Origin: Betaproteobacteria bacterium HGW-Betaproteobacteria-22
Lineage (GTDB): Bacteria; Pseudomonadota; Gammaproteobacteria; Burkholderiales; Methylophilaceae
DNA length: 38,678 nucleotides
Assembly (NCBI GenBank): GCA_002842285.1
Contig: PHCJ01000021.1
Coordinates: 1-38,678 of the forward strand
Direction: 5' to 3'
The notes under the pieces were generated by a model. The model ran no database searches, was not told the origin of the DNA, and worked only from the letters and a program-made list of their open reading frames with translations. The translations under genes were made by a program, and so were the position numbers. Positions 7,912 through 17,540 of this stretch are shown here, piece by piece. The first letter of the stretch is position 1. Every line of letters starts with the position of its first letter.

Positions 7912-8250
7912 TCAAGCCAAGCCTAATTGATAAAGATTAGACGCGCGATTGCCCGTCCGGCAAAAAGCCAGCACAGGTTTTTCTGCCGATGCAAAGCATG
8001 CCCTGAACACCGCCACCTGCTCAGGCTCTATATGATTAGGTATCACAGGAATATACGCATAATTTAAACCTACTGATTTGGCCGCAGCCTCCAGCATTGC
8101 ACTCTCAGGCTGATCACCACCACCTTCATGATCGGGCCGGTTATTAATCACTGTTTTAAATCCTGAGCGTGCAATCTCAGCCATATCACCCGTGGTGATT
8201 TGACCGGTCACACTGAAGTCTGCAGAGATTTGCTTAACCACTAACGCCAT
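7912..8250 (-). CDS. DUF442/TIGR01244 family protein (sulfurtransferase- or phosphatase-like)
   Basis: This 112-residue single-domain cytoplasmic protein has the dual-specificity-phosphatase-like fold of PF04273, the domain fused to persulfide dioxygenase in the Blh proteins of BigR operons. The active-site loop is CRTGNR (Cys97 to Arg102). That is a C-X4-R loop of rhodanese size rather than the C-X5-R of true tyrosine phosphatases. An upstream acidic region, NNRPDHEGGGDQP, is typical of the family. The start has GGAG seven bases upstream. It lies downstream of the ArsR-type regulator on the same strand, 184 bp away, and could share its transcript or use its own promoter. A sulfur-relay role fits the rhodanese and DUF2892 genes nearby; a phosphatase role is also documented for a Neisseria homologue. 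Confidence 0.85.
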   Translation of the reverse strand: MALVVKQISADFSVTGQITTGDMAEIARSGFKTVINNRPDHEGGGDQPESAMLEAAAKSVGLNYAYIPVIPNHIEPEQVAVFRACFASAEKPVLAFCRTGNRASNLYQLGLA

Positions 8251-8434: not shown

Positions 8435-8770
8435 CTAACCCACCATAAACAACTTCTTTACATCAGCTTCTTGAATGAGCCGATTGACCACCTGATCACA
8501 GACCAGCTCACATAGCTTATAAACAGATGGATCGGCAATACTATAAAAAACACTCGTGCCGCGCGACTCTCTTTTTACCAAGCCATATTGCGCCAATAGA
8601 GAAAGATGCTTAGACACATTGGCCTGTGAGCAACCCGAAACTTCAGTTAGCTGCCCCACATTTTTCTCTCCGTCTTGCAGTGCATTCAACATCTTTAAAC
8701 GCGTGGGCTCCGCCAACGCCTTGAAATAGTCTGCCACATACGCAAGTGTATTATCGTTTAGTTTACTCAC
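8435..8770 (-). CDS. ArsR/SmtB-family transcriptional repressor
   Basis: This is a 111-residue winged-helix repressor from the GTG at 8770, chosen because AGGTGA stands at a normal distance; a TTG at 8803 would add 11 residues. The core runs YFKALAEPTRLKMLNAL, then the recognition helix CSQANVSKHLSLL, then the wing KRESRGTSVFYSI. Cys47 sits at the recognition helix, and Cys87 and Cys91 in the C-terminal dimer helix (KLCELVC). The classical ArsR ELCVC metal site is absent. Cysteines in such positions suggest thiol/persulfide or metal sensing. The gene is divergent from the RND efflux operon, with an inverted repeat between them, so autoregulation and control of the pump are likely. The same repeat precedes ccoG. 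Confidence 0.92.
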   Translation of the reverse strand: MSKLNDNTLAYVADYFKALAEPTRLKMLNALQDGEKNVGQLTEVSGCSQANVSKHLSLLAQYGLVKRESRGTSVFYSIADPSVYKLCELVCDQVVNRLIQEADVKKLFMVG

Positions 8771-8828
8771 AGAATCACCTATCTTTCTCAATCGATGGAT
8801 CAATTATACATTGAAAATAAAAATTTGA

Positions 8829-8852
8829 CTATATAACTACATAGTAATATAG
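8829..8852. promoter_or_regulatory. Operator copy 1 (arsR / efflux intergenic region)
   Basis: CTATATAAC (8829-8837), six bases, GTAATATAG (8844-8852) is an inverted repeat with one mismatch. It lies between the divergent arsR and efflux genes, 59 bp from the arsR start and 21 bp from the pump operon start. The perfect form of the same site lies in front of ccoG. It is the probable binding site of the ArsR-type repressor. Confidence 0.75.
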
Positions 8853-8872
8853 TGCCATTTAGTTTGAATATA

Positions 8873-9940
8873 ATGAGTAAACAAATGCGACGATACGAAT
8901 ACACCTTTTTACATACCGCTGCAACCCTTTTGTTGTTATCTTGGGTAAGCCTCATGCCAGTTGCACAGGCCGATGCATTACAGACATTCATTATCAAAGA
9001 ATCACATCAGGCACAAGCCATCACAGCAGAAGGCTCAGTAGAGGCCGTGCAGCAAAGCGCCATTGCACCTCAGGTTTCAGGCAGCATCGCCATTCTTACA
9101 GTCAAGGCGGGCGATTATGTCAAAGCTGGGCAGTTGCTGGCACGCATTGATACGCGTATTGCCAATCAGCAAGTAATCTCCAACCAGGCACAAGTTGCGG
9201 CGGCCAATGCGCAACTGAGCGCTGCGCGTCAGGAATATGAGCGCAAACGCCGTCTGCACGAAAAACAATATATCAGCCAGGCAGCTTTGGAGCGGGCAGA
9301 GTCTGATTACAAAACGGCCGAGGCACAAACCAAAGCGCAGCTAGCGCAAACAAATGCCGCCAATGTGCAGACCGGCTTGCATACCATCAATGCGCCTTAT
9401 GCAGGTTTGGTTGCCGAGGTGATGGTGGAGCTGGGTGATATGGCCATGCCAGGTAAACCACTGTTAGTGATTTATGACTCGAAAGCATTGCGCGTGGTCG
9501 TGAACGTGCCTCAAAGCCAGCTAGCACAAATCAAGCAAAATGCAGGCATTCAGGTATCGATTCCTGCCGCAATAGAGTCCGAGCGCAGCCTGACTGGCAC
9601 ACAAGTAACCATATTACCCACGGCTGATGCTGTGAGCAATATGGTTAAAGTGCGCATAACACTGCCTGAGAATTTAACCAGCCTGCGCCCGGGCATGTTT
9701 GCACGCGCCATGTTGCCTACTGAAAACGCTGGCGCACAGGGACAGCTTTCAGTGCCGGCAAGCGCAGTAGTTAAACGCAGCGAGTTGACAGCGGTGTATG
9801 TAGTGAACAGCAAAGGCCTGCCACAATTGCGACAGGTAAGGTTGGGCCGCAAGCAGGGTCATAACATTGAGGTTTTAGCGGGTTTGCAGGCGGGTGAAAA
9901 AATTGCACTTGATCCGATTGCGGCAGTGAACTTTAAGTAA
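8873..9940 (+). CDS. RND efflux periplasmic adaptor (membrane fusion protein)
   Basis: This is a 355-residue HlyD/AcrA-family protein from the ATG at 8873; a second ATG at 8885 gives an equally good signal peptide. The signal sequence ends around VAQA-DALQ. A split lipoyl/barrel-sandwich domain (GSVEAVQQSAIAPQVSGSIAIL, VKAGDYVKAGQLLARID, and later TINAPYAGLVAEV) encloses an alpha-helical hairpin of about residues 90-150 rich in Ala and Gln. A beta-barrel and a membrane-proximal domain follow. It has no lipobox. It is the first gene of the five-gene operon and should bridge the RND pump and the TolC-like channel. The operator just upstream implies repression by the divergent ArsR protein. Confidence 0.93.
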   Translation: MSKQMRRYEYTFLHTAATLLLLSWVSLMPVAQADALQTFIIKESHQAQAITAEGSVEAVQQSAIAPQVSGSIAILTVKAGDYVKAGQLLARIDTRIANQQVISNQAQVAAANAQLSAARQEYERKRRLHEKQYISQAALERAESDYKTAEAQTKAQLAQTNAANVQTGLHTINAPYAGLVAEVMVELGDMAMPGKPLLVIYDSKALRVVVNVPQSQLAQIKQNAGIQVSIPAAIESERSLTGTQVTILPTADAVSNMVKVRITLPENLTSLRPGMFARAMLPTENAGAQGQLSVPASAVVKRSELTAVYVVNSKGLPQLRQVRLGRKQGHNIEVLAGLQAGEKIALDPIAAVNFK

Positions 9941-9952
9941 ATTTAATTGCAC

Positions 9953-12900
9953 ATGACAAATAATTCAGAAAATTCAGGCACAGAAAATTTAGGTGTTTCA
10001 GGGCGTATCTCCAGATATTTCCAGAGTGCACAAATCACGCCTTTGATTGCATTGGTGGCGCTGCTGCTAGGCTTGTTTGCCGTATTCGCCACCCCGCGTG
10101 AAGAGGAGCCGCAGATCAATGTCACAATGGCGAATGTGCTAATTCCATTCCCGGGTGCGTCTGCCAAGAATGTTGAACAGATGGTGGCTGTACCTGCAGA
10201 ACAGGTGTTGTCGCAAATTGCAGATGTTGAACATGTGATGTCAGTTTCACGTCCTGGCATGGCGGTGATTACGGTGCAGTTTCAGGTGGGCGTGCCACGC
10301 ACCGAGGCCTTGGTGCGGCTGTATAACACCATCCAGTCCAACCAGGATTGGCTGCCGAAAAACCTGGGGGTAGGTGAGCCGATTGTTAAGCCCAAAGGGA
10401 TTGATGATGTCCCTATCCTGACTGCGACGCTCTACACAAAAAACCATCAGCAGGGTGCTTACGAACTTGAGCGGGTCGCACATGCGCTGGAAGCGGAAAT
10501 CAAGCATGTGAAAGGTACGCGTGAAGTCGTCACACATGGCGGGCCAGGCAGGGCTGTGAATATCATGCTGGACCCGGCGCGCATGGCGTCGGCTAACATC
10601 ACCATCGCAGATATGCGCAGTGCATTGCAATCCGCAAACCTGGGAGCGCCTTTGGGCGAAATGGTCAACGCCAATCAGGCGATTGCGATAGAGGTGGGTA
10701 AATATCTGGCAGATGCGGAGGATGTTGCCCAGTTGGTCGTCGGGTTGCACGCAGGCCAGCCAGTGTATCTGGGTGAGGTCGCTGATGTGACGGATGGCCC
10801 ATTGCCTGCAGAACGATTTGTCTGGTATGGCGAGGGTGGCAGCGCAGCCGAGTATCCCGCGGTGACATTAAGCGTGACCAAAAAACCGGGGCAAAATGCA
10901 GTGGCAGTTTCTGATGCCGTGATCAAGCAGATCGATAGTCTCAAGAATGTGCTGATTCCAGCGGACGTGGAAGTGAAGATTACGCGTAACTATGGCGAGA
11001 CTGCCAACGAGAAAGCGCAGAAACTGATCCAGAAATTGATTTTTGCCACTTCTGCGGTGGTGCTGCTGGTGCTGGTTGCACTAGGGCGCCGTGAAGCTGC
11101 GATTGTGGGTACAGCGGTGATATTGACGCTCACCGCGACTTTGTTCGCATCGTGGGCATGGGGGGTTACGCTGAATCGTGTTTCATTATTTGCGCTGATC
11201 TTCTCTATCGGGATTCTGGTGGATGATGCCATCGTGGTGGTGGAAAACATTCACCGCCACATGAAACTTAAACCTGATGCAACATTGATCGAGATTATTC
11301 CCGCGGCAGTGGATGAAGTTGGTGGCCCAACCATATTGGCCACACTGACCGTGATTGCCGCGCTGTTGCCGATGGCATTTGTCAGCGGTTTGATGGGGCC
11401 TTACATGAGCCCGATTCCGATCAACGCCAGCATGGGCATGCTGATTTCGCTCGCCATCGCTTTGACCATCACGCCGTGGCTGTCGCGCATCTGGTTGCGC
11501 CATGCGCAGCACGAAGATGCGCTGGCAAAGCGCATTGCCCCGGTCTTTACACGTATTTTCACGCCATTCCTGCGTGATGCTGATGGCAAGAAGAGTCGAC
11601 GTAAATTAAGCCTGGGGGTGCTGGGCTTGATTTTGATTTCATTAGCCTTGCCGGCGGCGCAGCTGGTGGTGATGAAAATGCTGCCGTTTGATAATAAATC
11701 CGAGTTTCAGGTGGTGGTGGATATGCCGGCTGGCACGCCGCCGGAAAGAACCGCCAGCGTACTGCATGCCATGACCGCTTATTTGGCCAGCGTGCCGGAG
11801 GTAGCCAATTATCAGGCGTATGTCGGGCTTTCTGCGCCCATCAATTTTAATGGGCTGGTACGCCAGTATTACTTGCGTAGCGGCGGCGAGGTCGGCGATA
11901 TTCAGGTGAATCTGGTAGACAAGCATCACCGCAGCGAGCAAAGCCATGCGATTGCCGGTCGCGTGCGGCCAGAGTTGCAGAAAATTGCGCTAGAGATGGG
12001 CGCAAAAGTGAAGGTGGTAGAAGTGCCGCCGGGTCCGCCGGTGATTTCACCGATTGTGGCAGAGATTTATGGTCCGGATGATGCGGACAGGATGCGCATT
12101 GCCAGACAGGTAAGGCAAGTGTTTGAGCGCACAGAGAACATTGTGGATGTTGACGACAGCAGTATCGCAGATGCGAAAAGAATCTTTCTGGAAGTTGACA
12201 AGAAAAAGGCTGCATTGCTGGGCGTGCCACAGGCTGCAATTGTCAGTACCTTACGTGCTGGTCTGGCGGGCGAGGATGTGACTTATTTGCACGATGCCAG
12301 CAAATATCCGACTGCAACGCGGTTGCGTTTGCCGGTGTCATCGCAGGGCGACATGGAGGATCTGCTTAAGCTTTCAGTGACCACATCGTCTGGCAAGCTG
12401 GTGCCGATACGCGAGCTGGTTGTGGTGGAAGAAGTGCTGCGTGAACAACCTATTTACCACAAAGACTTATTGCCAGTGAATTACGTGGTGGGCGACATGG
12501 CCGGCAAACTGGATAGCCCTTTGTATGGCATGTTTGGCATGCGCGCCGCAGTAGCTGACATCCCCGTGCCGGGCGGTGGAAAATTGGGCGAGTATTTTAT
12601 ACAGCAGCCGGAGGATAACCAGCGCGGCTACGCGCTTAAATGGGATGGCGAGTGGCAAGTGACTTACGAAACTTTCCGTGACATGGGTGCGGCCTATGGT
12701 GTGGGGCTGATTCTGATTTACCTGCTGGTAGTAGCGCAGTTTGGCTCATATCTGACACCGTTGATTATCATGGCGCCCATTCCATTGACTATCATCGGGG
12801 TGATGCCGGGCCACGCCTTGCTGGGTGCGCAGTTTACCGCGACTTCCATGATCGGCATGATTGCGCTGGCAGGGATTATCGTCAGAAACTCTATTTTGCT

Positions 12901-13156
12901 GGTTGATTTTATTAATCTGGAGGTCGCATCGGGCAAGCCGTTCAAAGAAGCAGTGGTGAATTCAGCCATCACACGGGCGCAGCCGATTATGCTGACGGCG
13001 CTATCGGCCATGCTGGGTGCTTTCTTTATACTGGATGACCCGATTTTTAACGGGCTGGCGATCTCGCTAATCTTTGGTATTTTTGTTTCGACCGTGCTGA
13101 CACTGGTCGTGATCCCGTTGCTTTACTTTGTGGCCTACCGCCGTAAATTTATATAA
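9953..13156 (+). CDS. RND efflux pump, inner-membrane subunit
   Basis: This 1067-residue protein has the 12-helix, two-large-loop layout of AcrB-type transporters. The first helix is near residues 25-45 (LIALVALLLGLFAVFATPREEEPQI). TM4 carries the proton-relay pair Asp-Asp in GILVDDAIVVVENIHRH (about residue 424), the pattern of the drug/organic (HAE-1) branch rather than the heavy-metal branch. The second helix group includes GIIVRNSILLVDFI. Two large periplasmic porter loops are present. The ATG at 9953 is 12 bases after the adaptor stop; a TTG at 9947 is an alternative. The substrate is unknown. The operon partners (DUF2892, rhodanese) suggest export of a sulfur compound or of something that generates thiol stress. 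Confidence 0.95.
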   Translation: MTNNSENSGTENLGVSGRISRYFQSAQITPLIALVALLLGLFAVFATPREEEPQINVTMANVLIPFPGASAKNVEQMVAVPAEQVLSQIADVEHVMSVSRPGMAVITVQFQVGVPRTEALVRLYNTIQSNQDWLPKNLGVGEPIVKPKGIDDVPILTATLYTKNHQQGAYELERVAHALEAEIKHVKGTREVVTHGGPGRAVNIMLDPARMASANITIADMRSALQSANLGAPLGEMVNANQAIAIEVGKYLADAEDVAQLVVGLHAGQPVYLGEVADVTDGPLPAERFVWYGEGGSAAEYPAVTLSVTKKPGQNAVAVSDAVIKQIDSLKNVLIPADVEVKITRNYGETANEKAQKLIQKLIFATSAVVLLVLVALGRREAAIVGTAVILTLTATLFASWAWGVTLNRVSLFALIFSIGILVDDAIVVVENIHRHMKLKPDATLIEIIPAAVDEVGGPTILATLTVIAALLPMAFVSGLMGPYMSPIPINASMGMLISLAIALTITPWLSRIWLRHAQHEDALAKRIAPVFTRIFTPFLRDADGKKSRRKLSLGVLGLILISLALPAAQLVVMKMLPFDNKSEFQVVVDMPAGTPPERTASVLHAMTAYLASVPEVANYQAYVGLSAPINFNGLVRQYYLRSGGEVGDIQVNLVDKHHRSEQSHAIAGRVRPELQKIALEMGAKVKVVEVPPGPPVISPIVAEIYGPDDADRMRIARQVRQVFERTENIVDVDDSSIADAKRIFLEVDKKKAALLGVPQAAIVSTLRAGLAGEDVTYLHDASKYPTATRLRLPVSSQGDMEDLLKLSVTTSSGKLVPIRELVVVEEVLREQPIYHKDLLPVNYVVGDMAGKLDSPLYGMFGMRAAVADIPVPGGGKLGEYFIQQPEDNQRGYALKWDGEWQVTYETFRDMGAAYGVGLILIYLLVVAQFGSYLTPLIIMAPIPLTIIGVMPGHALLGAQFTATSMIGMIALAGIIVRNSILLVDFINLEVASGKPFKEAVVNSAITRAQPIMLTALSAMLGAFFILDDPIFNGLAISLIFGIFVSTVLTLVVIPLLYFVAYRRKFI

Positions 13157-13176
13157 TTTTTTTTGGAGAAAACGCT

Positions 13177-13386
13177 ATGACTTCCTGGAAACTTGTACGT
13201 GTAATTGCTGGATTTTTTATCCTACTTTCATTAGCGCTTGGTGTGACTGAAAGCCCGTTTTTTATCAGTCACTACTGGCTGTATTTCACCGCTTTTGTAG
13301 GCATTAATCTACTGCAAAGCGGTTTTACCGACTGGTGCCTGATGGAAAATATGTTACGTAAATTAGGCGTACGTGCGGGTTGCTAA
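13177..13386 (+). CDS. DUF2892 small membrane protein (YgaP-like transmembrane domain)
   Basis: This 69-residue protein has two transmembrane helices (about residues 7-23 and 30-50) and the C-terminal family signature GFTDWCLMENMLRKLG. It matches the DUF2892 domain, which in E. coli YgaP is fused behind a rhodanese domain. Here the rhodanese is a separate gene two positions downstream. The ATG is preceded by GGAG at good spacing. It sits between the pump and the outer-membrane channel, and its stop is one base before the next start, so it is a true operon member. DUF2892 has no settled biochemical role; a link to thiocyanate or sulfane-sulfur handling comes from YgaP. Confidence 0.85.
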   Translation: MTSWKLVRVIAGFFILLSLALGVTESPFFISHYWLYFTAFVGINLLQSGFTDWCLMENMLRKLGVRAGC

Positions 13387-13387
13387 G

Positions 13388-14764
13388 ATGCGCTTACGCT
13401 ACTGTTTACCGTTGTTGGTTTTTATTTCAGGTCAGGCGCAGGCTTTTGACTTGTTAGAGGCTTGGCAGGCTGCGCGTACGCAAGACCCGGCTTTTGCTGC
13501 GGCACGTGCAGAAGCAGCTGCTGGCCATAGCAAAACATCACAGGCAAGCGCACTGAAAGGCCCGCAGGTAACGCTCAATGCAGGCGCGGGTGGGGTAAGT
13601 AATGATCAGAAAATCACCGACGCCCGATTCTCTAACGCGCAGTTTGCGGGTGCTGGTGCTGGCGCAAAGGGCACCACGGACTTTCGCACTAAAACCGATG
13701 GCGGGCTTAACCTTAACCTAAATTTGCGTGCGGAATATGCGCTTTATGATGCCGCACGGGATGGCTCAGCCACACAACTGAATAAACAGGCGGAGCTGGC
13801 GGAGGTGCAGTTAAGCGCAGAAGCGCAACAGCTGATGCTGCGCGTGGCGCAGGCTTATTTTGATACATTGCTAGCGTCGGATGCGCTGGCTGCATTAAAG
13901 GCACAGCAACTGGCTGTTGCCAAGGCGCTGGAGAGCGCGCAGGCACGCTATAAAGAAGGGGACGCGGCCATCATTGATACCCATGAAACGCAGGCACGTC
14001 ATGACATGCTGACTTCGCAGGTGCTGGAAGCAGAAAGCAATGTACAGCTGACGCGTGCGGTGCTGGCAGACATTTCTGGCAATCAGGATGCGGTGTTGCA
14101 ACAGCTCACGGGCAAGGTGGATTTTAAGCGTTATGTGAATGGTGATTTGCAAAGCTGGCTGGCACGTGCACAAAGCAATCATCCACAAGTGCATGCGCAG
14201 CAATTGCAGCAGCAAATCGCGCAGGTTGAAAGCGAAAAGTTTCAATCCAGGTACGCCCCTACTGTGAATTTAGTCGCGCAGGCAGGCGGCGAGCATTTAC
14301 AGGGCTTGGCTGGCGGTGATGCCGATGTGACCAACCGGCAGTTAAGTCTGGGTGTGCAGATGACCATTCCGCTGTATAGCAGCGGGATGCGTGATGCCAA
14401 ACATCAGGAGGCGGTCGCATTGCAAGAGAAGGCGCGCAGTCAAGCCGATGTTGCCAGGCAGCGCGCATCGCAGGAGGCAAGGTCGGCGTGGATGGCGCTG
14501 AACGTTGGCCAAAGCCAGATCAAAGCGCTGGAGCAGGCAGAACGTTCTGCCTTGATCAAGCTGGATTCCACGCAATTGGGGCGTGATGTGGGCGACCGCA
14601 CTACGCTGGATGTACTGAACTCTGAGCAGGAGCTGCACAACGCCAGGCTCGCATTATCACGCAGTAAATATCAGGTGCTGCAAGCCTTACTTAACCTGTC
14701 AGCCGCAGCGGGCGAGTTGAACGAAGCACGTTTAGAAGAAATCAATCAGGTGTTTAATCAATAG
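13388..14764 (+). CDS. TolC-family outer-membrane efflux channel
   Basis: This is a 458-residue protein from the ATG at 13388, which yields a clean signal peptide (ending SGQAQA-FDLL); an upstream GTG at 13373 overlaps the preceding gene. The first mature segment, FDLLEAWQAARTQDPAFAAARAE, is the TolC-type start. Two repeats of long Ala/Gln-rich helices (about residues 120-220 and 330-440) form the tunnel, with strands GVQMTIPLYSSGMRD and similar forming the barrel. It has no lipobox, so it is TolC-like rather than OprM-like. It completes the tripartite pump with the two upstream gene products. Confidence 0.93.
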   Translation: MRLRYCLPLLVFISGQAQAFDLLEAWQAARTQDPAFAAARAEAAAGHSKTSQASALKGPQVTLNAGAGGVSNDQKITDARFSNAQFAGAGAGAKGTTDFRTKTDGGLNLNLNLRAEYALYDAARDGSATQLNKQAELAEVQLSAEAQQLMLRVAQAYFDTLLASDALAALKAQQLAVAKALESAQARYKEGDAAIIDTHETQARHDMLTSQVLEAESNVQLTRAVLADISGNQDAVLQQLTGKVDFKRYVNGDLQSWLARAQSNHPQVHAQQLQQQIAQVESEKFQSRYAPTVNLVAQAGGEHLQGLAGGDADVTNRQLSLGVQMTIPLYSSGMRDAKHQEAVALQEKARSQADVARQRASQEARSAWMALNVGQSQIKALEQAERSALIKLDSTQLGRDVGDRTTLDVLNSEQELHNARLALSRSKYQVLQALLNLSAAAGELNEARLEEINQVFNQ

Positions 14765-14782
14765 TTTTTATAAGGATGCGAA

Positions 14783-15175
14783 ATGTTTAACAAATTGAAA
14801 ATCAGTCTCAGTGTCATGGCAATAGTGTTATTAGCCGGATGCAATTCTCAAGTAGCATCGGTGACACCCAAAGAGGCCGCCACAATGTTTTCCGAGCAAA
14901 AGGCGGTTATTGTGGATGTGCGCGAAGATGATGAATGGAAAGCGCAGCATATTGAAGGGGCGATTCATATTCCGCTGGCACAGGTAGAAGCCAGGCTTGG
15001 CGAGTTGGTGCAGTATAAAGATAGTCCGGTGATTTTGCAGTGCCGCAGCGGCAAGCGCTCGGCTAAGGCTGCAGAGGTTTTAAAATCAGCCGGTTTCACT
15101 CTGACATACAACCTGACCGGTGGAATCAATGCATGGACTAATGATGGATTGCCAACCTCTCAAGAAAAATTCTAG
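14783..15175 (+). CDS. Rhodanese-domain lipoprotein
   Basis: This 130-residue protein has a lipoprotein signal peptide (lipobox LLAGC, acylated Cys20) and one rhodanese domain. CH2A-like VIVDVREDDEW is followed by the active-site loop CRSGKRS with Cys87. The conserved tail TGGINAW is present. It should transfer sulfane sulfur at the periplasmic face of a membrane. The residue after the lipid Cys is Asn, so outer-membrane sorting is likely. It is the last gene of the efflux operon and ends 83 bp before a strong terminator. Together with the DUF2892 protein it recreates the parts of E. coli YgaP as two proteins, but with the rhodanese outside the cytoplasm. Confidence 0.92.
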   Translation: MFNKLKISLSVMAIVLLAGCNSQVASVTPKEAATMFSEQKAVIVDVREDDEWKAQHIEGAIHIPLAQVEARLGELVQYKDSPVILQCRSGKRSAKAAEVLKSAGFTLTYNLTGGINAWTNDGLPTSQEKF

Positions 15176-15257
15176 GGGCTGTCCTAGATAACTAGCCCAT
15201 ATGTTGTTTAACCCATTGTTTCAATTGCATCAACTGAAGAACAACGACAATAAAAAA

Positions 15258-15287
15258 CCACGACACCGCTGATTGAATGTGTCGTGG
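15258..15287. terminator. Bidirectional rho-independent terminator
   Basis: A perfect 9-bp stem, CCACGACAC/GTGTCGTGG, with a 12-nt loop has an A-run to its left and a T-run to its right. It separates the rightward efflux operon from the leftward ccoG and serves both. Confidence 0.88.
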
Positions 15288-15332
15288 CATATTTTTTGGA
15301 AAGGCGCTTTCAGCACGCTTTGAAATACAGTG

Positions 15333-16778
15333 CTATCTAGGCACTAAAAATACGGCTTTTTCTTCTATGGTTTCACCAGTTTCCTTGGCCCGAATTTTAA
15401 AAACAATGTGATGAGAGCCTGATTTTTCAGCGCCATCTGGAACCTGCACACGTACAGCGATAGATCGCACCTCAGCAGGATTGATCTCAACTGTTTGCTG
15501 ACTGTCCGTCACATCGGATTGCAGCGCTAATTTAGCCAGACCTTCAACACTGAGCTGATATTGCTGACTGGTTTCTGTTGCATTCATAATCTGCAATCGA
15601 TATACATTTTCCAGCATGCCGCCTTCTACCAGCCTTGCCATAACGCCACGATCACGCACCACATTCACTTTAAATGAAGGGCGAAGCCACAGACTGGTCA
15701 GCGTGGCAACCACTAGCGCCGCAAGAATAGCTGTATAGACAATCACGCGTGGTCGCGCAATACGTTTAAGCATTTGCTGATGTGTCCAACCGTTGTTCAG
15801 AGCGTTCTGCGTTGAATATTTAACCAGGCCGCGCGCATAGCCCACTTTATCCATGACAGTATCACATACATCAGCACAGGCGCCACAGCCAATACATTCG
15901 TACTGCAAGCCTTTGCGAATATCAATACCTGTCGGGCACACCTGTACACACAGGCTGCAGTCGATACAGGCACCCTGCTTGCCAGGATCAATCGCGGTTT
16001 TTTGTGATACTTTGCCACGAGGTTCACCGCGTTTTTCATCATAGGTAACGATTAATGTGTCATCATCAAACATGGCACTCTGAAAACGTGCGTAAGGACA
16101 CATATATTTACATACCTGCTCACGCATAAAGCCTGCATTGCCGTAAGTGGCAAAGCCGTAAAAACATATCCAGAAAGTTTCCCAGGGACCCAGGCCCATG
16201 TTCACCACGGCACTGCCCAGTTCACGGATAGGTGAGAAGTAACCGACAAAGGTAAAGCCAGTCCAGAGTGCAAACAAAATCCAGACGAGATGTTTGCTGC
16301 CTTTTTTAAACAACTTCTTACCTGAGAACCCCGCATGATCAAGCTTCATGCGTGCAGCACGGTCACCTTCAATTTTAGACTCAATCCAAAGGAATATTTC
16401 TGTATAAACGGTTTGTGGACAGGTGTAACCACACCATAATCGTCCTGCAACTGCAGTAAATAAAAATAGCGAGAGGGCTGAGATAATGAGAATTGCTGTC
16501 AGGTAGATGAGATCCTGCGGATAGAGTACTAGATTAAAGATATAAAAGCGCCTGGCTTCCAAATCAAACAGCAAGGCCTGGCGTGAGCCCCATTCCAGCC
16601 AAGGCATACCATAAAAAAAGAGCTGGGTCAGCCATATCATGACCCAGCGCCACTTGGTAAAGAACCCAAAGGTACTGCGGGGGTAGATTTTTTCTGCAGC
16701 TGCGTATAGGTTAATAACAGCGCTTTCAGTGCTTTTGTTCACAACTTCAGCGCTATTGGGGCTTTTTATTTGCGTCAT
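15333..16778 (-). CDS. ccoG: Cytochrome oxidase accessory protein CcoG (FixG/RdxA), Cu(II) reductase
   Basis: This is a 481-residue membrane protein from the ATG at 16778; an upstream TTG at 16811 would run into the operator. Several transmembrane helices surround LWCGYTCPQTVYTE. A two-cluster ferredoxin region follows: CIDCSLCVQVCPTGID and CIGCGACADVCD. A last helix comes next, then a C-terminal Ig-like FixG domain. CcoG reduces Cu(II) to Cu(I) for cbb3 oxidase assembly in Rhodobacter. No ccoNOPQ, ccoS or ccoI gene is in the window, so here it stands alone. A perfect CTATATAAC inverted repeat 34-57 bp before its start matches the site between arsR and the pump operon, implying shared control. 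Confidence 0.95.
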   Translation of the reverse strand: MTQIKSPNSAEVVNKSTESAVINLYAAAEKIYPRSTFGFFTKWRWVMIWLTQLFFYGMPWLEWGSRQALLFDLEARRFYIFNLVLYPQDLIYLTAILIISALSLFLFTAVAGRLWCGYTCPQTVYTEIFLWIESKIEGDRAARMKLDHAGFSGKKLFKKGSKHLVWILFALWTGFTFVGYFSPIRELGSAVVNMGLGPWETFWICFYGFATYGNAGFMREQVCKYMCPYARFQSAMFDDDTLIVTYDEKRGEPRGKVSQKTAIDPGKQGACIDCSLCVQVCPTGIDIRKGLQYECIGCGACADVCDTVMDKVGYARGLVKYSTQNALNNGWTHQQMLKRIARPRVIVYTAILAALVVATLTSLWLRPSFKVNVVRDRGVMARLVEGGMLENVYRLQIMNATETSQQYQLSVEGLAKLALQSDVTDSQQTVEINPAEVRSIAVRVQVPDGAEKSGSHHIVFKIRAKETGETIEEKAVFLVPR

Positions 16779-16811
16779 GTGAGTTTGCCTATCCCTAAAT
16801 ATATAATTCAA

Positions 16812-16835
16812 CTATATAACTATTTGGTTATATAG
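16812..16835. promoter_or_regulatory. Operator copy 2 (ccoG upstream region), perfect inverted repeat
   Basis: CTATATAAC (16812-16820), six bases, GTTATATAG (16827-16835) is a perfect inverted repeat. The first 11 bases, ACTATATAACT, are identical to the site at 8828. The surrounding 16779-17087 stretch (309 bp, no gene) also holds the structured segment 16912-16974 and the palindrome 17046-17072. Confidence 0.8.
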
Positions 16836-17087: not shown

Positions 17088-17540
17088 ATGACTAAGATCA
17101 ACCCCATACAAGCTGCTGCTTTAAAAACACCTACCGAAAAGCCTGCGGCGCCCCCAACCACATCTGCTCAACCTGCCGCACAAAGAGCAAGGTCCGGCAA
17201 AGCGCCTGCGGTCAAGGCGGACACTGTGAGAAAAGCTGCAAGCACCCCTAAGATTGCTACTACAGCAAAAGCGGCAGAAAAAAACAAAAGCGTAATCAAA
17301 CCTGTCAAAGAAAAAACGCCCAAACTTAAAATGGAGCGTGACAGCTTTACCATGCCAAAAACTGAGTATGCACAATTTGGCGTACTAAAAAGCCGTTTAG
17401 AGAAACTGGGCCAACCAGCTAAAAAGAGTGAACTGATACGTGCAGGCTTAATGCTGCTAAGCGCAATGGCGGATGCCACTTTAAAAACCACATTGGGTAA
17501 AGTGCCTACCATTAAAACCGGCAGACCTAAAAAAAAATAA
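17088..17540 (+). CDS. Lys/Ala-rich protein with a ribbon-helix-helix-like C-terminal region
   Basis: This 150-residue protein has two unlike halves. Residues 1-82 are low-complexity Ala, Pro, Thr and Lys, resembling histone-H1-like tails. Residues 83-150 are ordered: a strand-like DSFTMPKTEYAQFGVL, then two helices including KKSELIRAGLMLLSAM, then a basic tail ending GRPKKK. Strand followed by S/K-E-L-I-R-A-G-L-hydrophobic helix resembles the ribbon-helix-helix DNA-binding fold, but this is by eye. A basic tail plus a DNA-binding head would fit a nucleoid or local regulatory protein. A perfect palindrome just upstream of its ribosome-binding site suggests self-regulation. It is monocistronic and convergent with sixA. 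Confidence 0.65.
   Translation: MTKINPIQAAALKTPTEKPAAPPTTSAQPAAQRARSGKAPAVKADTVRKAASTPKIATTAKAAEKNKSVIKPVKEKTPKLKMERDSFTMPKTEYAQFGVLKSRLEKLGQPAKKSELIRAGLMLLSAMADATLKTTLGKVPTIKTGRPKKK

Follow-up and report, generated by a model that had tools for sequence, protein, structure and literature searches.

A shared operator suggests that one ArsR-family repressor controls an RND pump operon and ccoG in a Methylotenera-group bacterium

An arsR-RND locus with two copies of one operator

We analyzed a stretch of 38,678 nucleotides (the window) from Betaproteobacteria bacterium HGW-Betaproteobacteria-22, a member of the Methylophilaceae (contig PHCJ01000021.1 of assembly GCA_002842285.1). It contains a gene for an ArsR-family repressor (arsR), a divergent operon for an RND efflux pump, and ccoG, which encodes a cytochrome c oxidase accessory protein. 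Similar palindromic sites, O1 and O2, precede the pump operon and ccoG. We propose that this Methylotenera-group bacterium has one ArsR regulon that covers the pump operon and ccoG and responds to reactive sulfur; comparisons with related genomes make this probable. ccoG (minus strand) is convergent with the pump operon (plus strand, opposite to arsR). The features of the locus are:

7912–8250, minus strand: BLH_phosphatase (DUF442-type) protein, 3' of arsR and probably co-transcribed with it (PF04273, 116 bits, cut-off 26)
8435–8770, minus strand: arsR, ArsR/SmtB repressor of 111 amino acids with a putative GTG start and with Cys47, Cys87, and Cys91 (PF01022, 47.4 bits, cut-off 22; NF033788, 90 bits, cut-off 55)
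8803–8831, minus strand: putative arsR promoter, sigma-70-like, TAGTCA-17-TATAAT (10/12); its -35 element touches O1
8825–8853, plus strand: putative pump-operon promoter, sigma-70-like, TTGACT-17-TATAGT (10/12); covered by O1
8829–8852, no strand: operator O1, an 11-2-11 palindrome, one mismatch away from the perfect site, between arsR and the adaptor gene
8873–9940, plus strand: RND periplasmic adaptor (MFP) (TIGR01730, 217 bits, cut-off 94.9)
9953–13156, plus strand: RND permease, 1067 amino acids (PF00873, 491 bits, cut-off 28)
13177–13386, plus strand: YgaP-like transmembrane protein (DUF2892) (PF11127, 44 bits, cut-off 25)
13388–14764, plus strand: TolC-family outer-membrane channel (PF02321; TIGR01844, 221 bits, just below the cut-off of 225)
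14783–15175, plus strand: rhodanese-domain protein whose N-terminus resembles that of a lipoprotein (lipobox by eye) (PF00581, 80.8 bits, cut-off 22)
15176–15332, no strand: gap without the Tll0287-like and SQR-like genes that two related genomes, G030 and G024, have; an inverted repeat (15249–15296) lies between the convergent genes
15333–16778, minus strand: ccoG, cytochrome c oxidase accessory protein of the cupric reductase family (TIGR02745, 513 bits, cut-off 316.7)
16812–16835, no strand: operator O2, an inverted repeat of the form 9-6-9 without mismatches; 33 bp separate it from the ATG of ccoG

An initial annotation, made from the sequence alone, had described two sites, one of them perfect and one with a single mismatch, that begin with the same 11 bases, and had found no third copy in the window. 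A pattern scan of the window agrees: O2 has no mismatches to CTATATAAC-N6-GTTATATAG, O1 has one, and each begins with CTATATAACTA. No further match with up to three mismatches was found in the window or in 100 shuffles of it. Both sites are where they were said to be, and O2 ends 33 bp before the ATG at 16778. One detail is revised. The spaced repeat, which is indeed perfect in O2, is better described as an 11-2-11 palindrome: this is the form of the family consensus (CTATATAACTATATAGTTATATAG), and the central 6 bp are largely conserved too.

The initial annotation had also suggested scanning the whole genome and related genomes for the motif. In the bacterium's own genome (2,531,697 bases in 40 contigs), only O1 and O2 match with up to two mismatches, which is more than chance predicts. 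Two sites with three mismatches (C3:13672 and C28:61266) were considered as third targets, but they look like chance matches, as the reversed pattern is equally frequent (2).

The operator is conserved at arsR-RND units

We compared 52 genomes of the genus (G000 is the window's own genome). Orthologs of ArsR (E ≤ 2e-30) were found in 31 of the 52, with the next match at 1.6e-11. In 24 of these 31 genomes, including the window genome, arsR is divergent from an MFP-RND operon, and all 24 have a palindrome in the arsR/MFP gap (consensus ttgaCTATATAACTATATAGTTATATAGt); this count takes the best match in each gap, including weak ones (5 mismatches to the 24-base consensus in G048 and G049, and 4 in G024). 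With one fixed pattern, sites with up to one mismatch were found in 15 of the 24 genomes with the unit, in 0 of 21 genomes without an ortholog, and in 0 of the 7 genomes of the more distant clade b; with up to two mismatches, the counts were 21/24, 2/21, and 0/7. (Fisher's test on these tallies ignores kinship.) Across the 52 genomes there are 17 sites with up to one mismatch, in 15 genomes, and every one lies in the arsR gap or before ccoG. So the motif does co-occur with this ArsR in related genomes. Judging from these comparisons, the first operator, in the arsR/pump gap, is a real operator.

O1 spans the -35 to -10 elements of the putative pump promoter and touches the -35 element of arsR. 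The stretch searched contained 2 promoter-like sites, versus 1.2 in shuffles. Of the 24 genus loci, 23 retain TTGACT and 18 retain TATAGT (counted by eye).

Beyond the genus, 17 of 20 order-level loci have MFP and RND genes divergent from arsR. We also considered the best 80 named loci, which include genus members and several truncated loci. The MFP gene is divergent within 700 bp in 70 of these, and genes for the RND permease (67), DUF2892 (59), SQR (28), and persulfide dioxygenase (16) are found as well. A loose palindrome (at least 11 of 14 positions) is present in 47 of the 80 upstream stretches, versus 1 of 80 when shuffled.

Two single cases lie elsewhere. In G043, which has no detected ArsR ortholog, a two-mismatch site (L113, 7627–7650) is flanked by an MlaA gene and by a gene that, judged by eye, is photolyase-like. 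In G037, the sulfate-permease gene cysT is preceded at about 80 bp by a site (L218, around 4500) that departs from the 16-position core at two positions.

In one clade, the operator also precedes ccoG

To score the DNA upstream of ccoG, we built a matrix from the 24 arsR-gap sites only and applied it to 48 window-type copies of ccoG from 45 genomes. (Short contig-end fragments in G028 (two) and G029 (one) are outside this set, and the G031 stretch is just 129 bases.) Three copies scored highly: 33.8 in G000, 31.6 in G030, and 30.2 in G024. Three mononucleotide shuffles of the 557,367 bases gave no score of 12 or above, nor did a symmetrized matrix applied to 620,511 reversed bases. A maximum-likelihood tree of the 48 sequences groups the three site-bearing copies in one clade (support 98/95), and in all three genomes ccoG converges with the arsR operon. 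Compared with G000, O2 is identical at 22 of 24 positions in G030 and at 20 of 24 in G024, while the flanks match at only 55 of 104 and 43 of 101 positions.

Most copies of ccoG (39 of 48) follow ccoN in the same orientation. Nine differ: the three site-bearing copies, those of G028, G036, G037, and G041, and those of G031 and G045, whose neighborhoods may be cut off by contig ends. The ccoNOP operons of G000 and G030 have no ccoG within the 12 kb that we fetched. We infer that ccoG left the cbb3 oxidase operon and that, in one clade, it came under an ArsR operator.

Alternatively, O2 might be a promoter or be bound by a different regulator of ccoG, and its likeness to O1 might be due to chance or to duplication of promoter DNA. 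Promoter elements do lie within O1 and account for part of its conservation, and G000 encodes a second ArsR-family protein (32% identity over the matched part). However, O2 matches the matrix far better than any shuffled or reversed control, and it is retained across three diverged genomes in which its flanks have changed. Also, given the base composition of the window, chance would yield 0.003 sites per genome with up to one mismatch (0.08 with up to two), yet two such sites lie 8 kb apart. We consider this alternative to be quite improbable. Instead, because the same conserved site precedes the pump operon and ccoG, one repressor probably controls both.

On the other side of O2, and divergent from ccoG, positions 17088–17540 encode a Lys/Ala-rich protein of 150 amino acids that has no match in Pfam; G030 has a 73% counterpart.

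Sulfur genes accompany the regulon

In G030 and G024, the pump operon continues with genes for a Tll0287-like protein and an SQR-like flavoprotein, between the rhodanese gene and ccoG. Among the 24 arsR-RND genomes, 21 have a full-length SQR-like gene, and in 18 of these it shares a contig with arsR; no other of the 52 genomes has one at full length. Of the remaining three arsR-RND genomes, G012 has fragments of the gene, and G000 and G047 lack it. Since the best NCBIfam scores are below the cut-offs, SQR, persulfide dioxygenase, and CoA-disulfide reductase are names by resemblance: for instance, the SQR-like protein scores 108.9 bits against the type III SQR model, whose cut-off is 525.

All seven genomes of clade b have a related site, TATATAACTATATACTC(A/G)TGTAA, before the ArsR gene. 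In the three clade-b loci that we listed in full, the genes after that for ArsR encode a persulfide-dioxygenase-like MBL protein, a DUF442-SQR fusion, and TauE (the gene families were tested on locus L118). The DUF442-type protein of the window shares 40% identity with the N-terminal part of the DUF442-SQR fusion. G041 has an additional related site, and the gene that begins 48 bp after it is CoA-disulfide-reductase-like (493 bits, cut-off 578.8). The neighbors of this ArsR and its relatives include sulfurtransferases, SQR, persulfide dioxygenase, and sulfur transport, as is expected for a persulfide sensor.

Because these neighboring genes suggest it, the signal is probably sulfide-derived sulfur. 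The initial annotation had left the choice between a thiol and a metal; the gene context argues for reactive sulfur and not for a metal.

A pair of cysteines within helix 5

The protein belongs to the ArsR/SmtB family by its HTH_5 domain and its winged-helix topology. An AlphaFold model (mean pLDDT of 80) has the order H-H-H-H-E-E-H, with helix 2 at residues 22–31, helix 3 at 38–45, and helix 5 at 81–109. Cys87 and Cys91 (Cys-x3-Cys) are both in helix 5. They are invariant in all 31 proteins from the genus, whose search did not require them, and in 21 of 21 proteins of a mixed set. They are also invariant in 81 of 81 proteins of a larger set, which is biased, as one of its three search patterns contained the cysteines. 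Among the relatives, 11 of the 81 and 3 of the 21 do have a helix-2 cysteine, at position 30. In the set of 81, cysteines are also found just before the recognition helix, at position 45 (33 proteins) or 47 (36 proteins).

In the published persulfide-sensing ArsR proteins, as far as they are described in the available parts of PMC10509353 and PMC12423496, one cysteine in helix 2 pairs with one in helix 5. Thus, this ArsR looks like a persulfide sensor by its context and lacks the cysteine feature that defines that class. Since 11 of 81 relatives have a cysteine at position 30, the border between these proteins and the helix-2/helix-5 sensors may not be sharp.

We also considered that the same regulon might respond to a thiophilic metal or metalloid (Cu, Cd, or As) bound at Cys87 and Cys91, so that the pump would export the metal and CcoG would supply Cu(I) for export. 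Two cysteines could form a soft-metal site; the ArsR family includes many metal sensors; and in searches of the PDB, CzrA entries follow the best match, which is listed as an ArsR-family regulator. CcoG is a cupric reductase whose overproduction promotes copper tolerance (PMC7558416, seen in part). However, the canonical metal-sensing CxC of helix 3 is absent (helix 3 of the window protein has no cysteine), and the atypical As(III) sensors use three ligands, all of them cysteines of helix 5 (PMC10509353, in the part available), where this protein has two. Furthermore, the partner genes that we found are for sulfur metabolism and respiration, although ars and cop genes were not searched for, and the permease is closer to multidrug models than to CusA or CzcA models, although it is below every NCBIfam cut-off. 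A metal signal therefore seems unlikely to us, and we favor sulfur over metal because of the gene context.

CcoG and cytochrome bd in other genomes

In two other genera, a different CcoG is encoded with the operon. In Novimethylophilus kurashikiensis (L301), CcoG is encoded 110 bp behind the SQR gene, on the same strand; in a genome labelled Methylobacillus (L300), it is directly behind the TolC gene, again on the same strand. These two proteins are 73% identical to each other, and each is about 36–42% identical to the CcoG of the window. The CcoG of locus L235 scores 434.8 bits, above the TIGR02745 cut-off. So CcoG was apparently recruited by the ArsR regulon at least twice. Outside the family, no CcoG near an ArsR was seen by eye among the matches listed. 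G480, G481, and G496, which have no ArsR match at E = 1e-25, encode relatives of the L300/L301-type CcoG and have no RND gene in the stretches fetched (4.1 kb for G480). The gap between SQR and ccoG in L301 has a possible weak second site (score -2.1), which we did not use.

Genes for cytochrome bd adjoin as well. Among 145 loci searched, L130 and L301 have cydA and cydB immediately after arsR and in its orientation. In G036, cydAB is next to ccoG, near arsR.

Is the controlled CcoG dedicated to the cbb3 oxidase? It might instead be a membrane electron-transfer protein of sulfur handling, with a polysulfide or metal sulfide in the periplasm as a possible substrate. The controlled ccoG is retained in G024 (92% complete), whose single ccoN match is followed by its own ccoG of the other type. 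Similarly, G000 has a second ccoG behind a second ccoNOP, and the distinct CcoG of the two other genera lies behind genes of the sulfur-linked operon. On the other hand, CcoG is known as a cupric reductase that is needed for full cbb3 activity (PMC7558416, available part), and the ccoNOP operons of G000 and G030 that have no ccoG of their own in the fetched 12 kb would need one. We view a role in sulfur handling as unlikely and prefer that the controlled CcoG serves the cbb3 oxidase.

The proposed regulon

We propose that, at rest, a dimer of ArsR would bind O1, over the -35 and -10 elements of the divergent promoters, and O2, so that the pump operon, arsR itself, and ccoG would be repressed. 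If sulfide enters the cell, the persulfide or polysulfide that results would modify the Cys87-x3-Cys91 pair in helix 5, and ArsR would release the DNA. The induced RND pump, DUF2892 protein, and rhodanese proteins (along with SQR in relatives) could then handle sulfane sulfur. Sulfide traps copper and inhibits heme-copper oxidases, and under these conditions the induced CcoG may maintain the Cu(I) supply of the cbb3 oxidase. Control of ccoG would have arisen a single time, in the clade that unites G000, G030, and G024; in Novimethylophilus and in the Methylobacillus-labelled genome, a different CcoG would have joined the operon.

A local regulon with one ArsR, an RND pump, sulfur-transfer proteins, and CcoG was the central claim of the initial annotation. 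The comparisons support it well (24 of 24 units with a site, two of them weak; close matches in 15/24 genomes versus 0/21; an O2 that was kept while its flanks diverged; and CcoG in two other genera), but only 3 of 45 genomes have the site before ccoG.

Several observations weigh against our proposal. The other 45 of the 48 copies of ccoG have matrix scores below 8, and hence no site, so conservation upstream of orthologs is lacking for most of them, yet 39 of the 48 are behind ccoN. Four genomes with the arsR-RND unit (G028, G036, G037, and G041) have a stand-alone ccoG without a site, which implies that leaving the oxidase operon was not sufficient for gaining the operator. In the tree of ccoG, the bootstrap had not settled and G024 is on a long branch. 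No promoter was found at O2 on the strand of ccoG. The sensor lacks the SqrR/BigR-type pair (0 of 31 proteins from the genus have a cysteine in helix 2), and it scores 40.8 bits against the NCBIfam BigR equivalog, far below the cut-off of 155. There is no SQR match anywhere in G000, so this gene appears to have been lost from the very genome that we started with. The additional site of G041 agrees with the 16-position core except for 1 mismatch, but has more than 3 mismatches to the full pattern. And no operator was found upstream of ccoN in 40 fetched stretches, so we rejected the cbb3 operon itself as a target.

The sole candidate at ccoN, in a genome with a clade-b ArsR (G007; L096, 3627–3650), is an operator-like palindrome in the gap between ccoN (about 190 bp away) and a divergent gene for a substrate-binding-protein-like protein (about 66 bp away); it may be due to chance or may serve either neighbor.

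Comparison with known systems

The closest known regulators are those of the SqrR/BigR/YgaV/HlyU/SoxR/sHdrR group (cluster 4 in PMC10509353). As far as the available text goes, these share the ArsR fold and control, or adjoin, genes for sulfurtransferases, persulfide dioxygenases, and sulfur transport. They are also linked to respiration: a ygaV mutant has more reads from cydAB (PMC9774250, in part). Unlike our ArsR, which has Cys-x3-Cys in helix 5 and is missed by the BigR model, they pair cysteines of helices 2 and 5. In Acinetobacter baumannii, which has BigR and FisR, the genes induced by sulfide include those for sulfur detoxification, cydAB, and copper-related genes (PMC7315123, in part), but BigR has a C34/C100 pair, and "RND" and "CcoG" do not occur in that text.

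By gene content, the locus can be likened to Dsui_3440–3443 of Azospira suillum, where an RND pump, its MFP, and SQR are in one operon that has high expression and a fitness signal under H2S oxidation (PMC5358917, in part). However, going by the gene numbers, SQR lies between the pump and the MFP there, and "ArsR" does not occur in that text. Also, as a further point against our proposal, deletion of that operon left the rate of H2S oxidation unchanged (PMC5358917, in part).

The CcoG of Rhodobacter capsulatus is of the same family (TIGR02745), and is a cupric reductase that supplies Cu(I) (PMC7558416, in part). It is encoded in ccoGHIS, behind the oxidase genes, whereas ccoG of the window stands alone, with an ArsR-type operator in front of it.

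Among open-licence papers, we recognized none on an ArsR protein that controls CcoG or on the helix-5 Cys-x3-Cys pattern. So while this kind of regulon is known, the arrangement of the cysteines and the CcoG target look new.

More speculatively, these proteins could be a second class of ArsR sensors for reactive sulfur, with both cysteines in a single helix (Cys-x3-Cys in helix 5). This class would run an RND-DUF2892-SQR module for sulfide defense in many Burkholderiales. In the Methylophilaceae, it might also run a respiratory rescue, given the recruitment of CcoG at least twice and the cytochrome bd genes alongside, which would make the supply of copper to the oxidase inducible by sulfide. 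We put this forward as a possibility and hold it tentatively. The conserved cysteines of this widely held ArsR group fit none of the described sensor classes that we compared, as far as the available parts of those sources describe them. And the regulon offers a concrete and testable link between sulfide stress and the supply of copper for respiratory oxidases.

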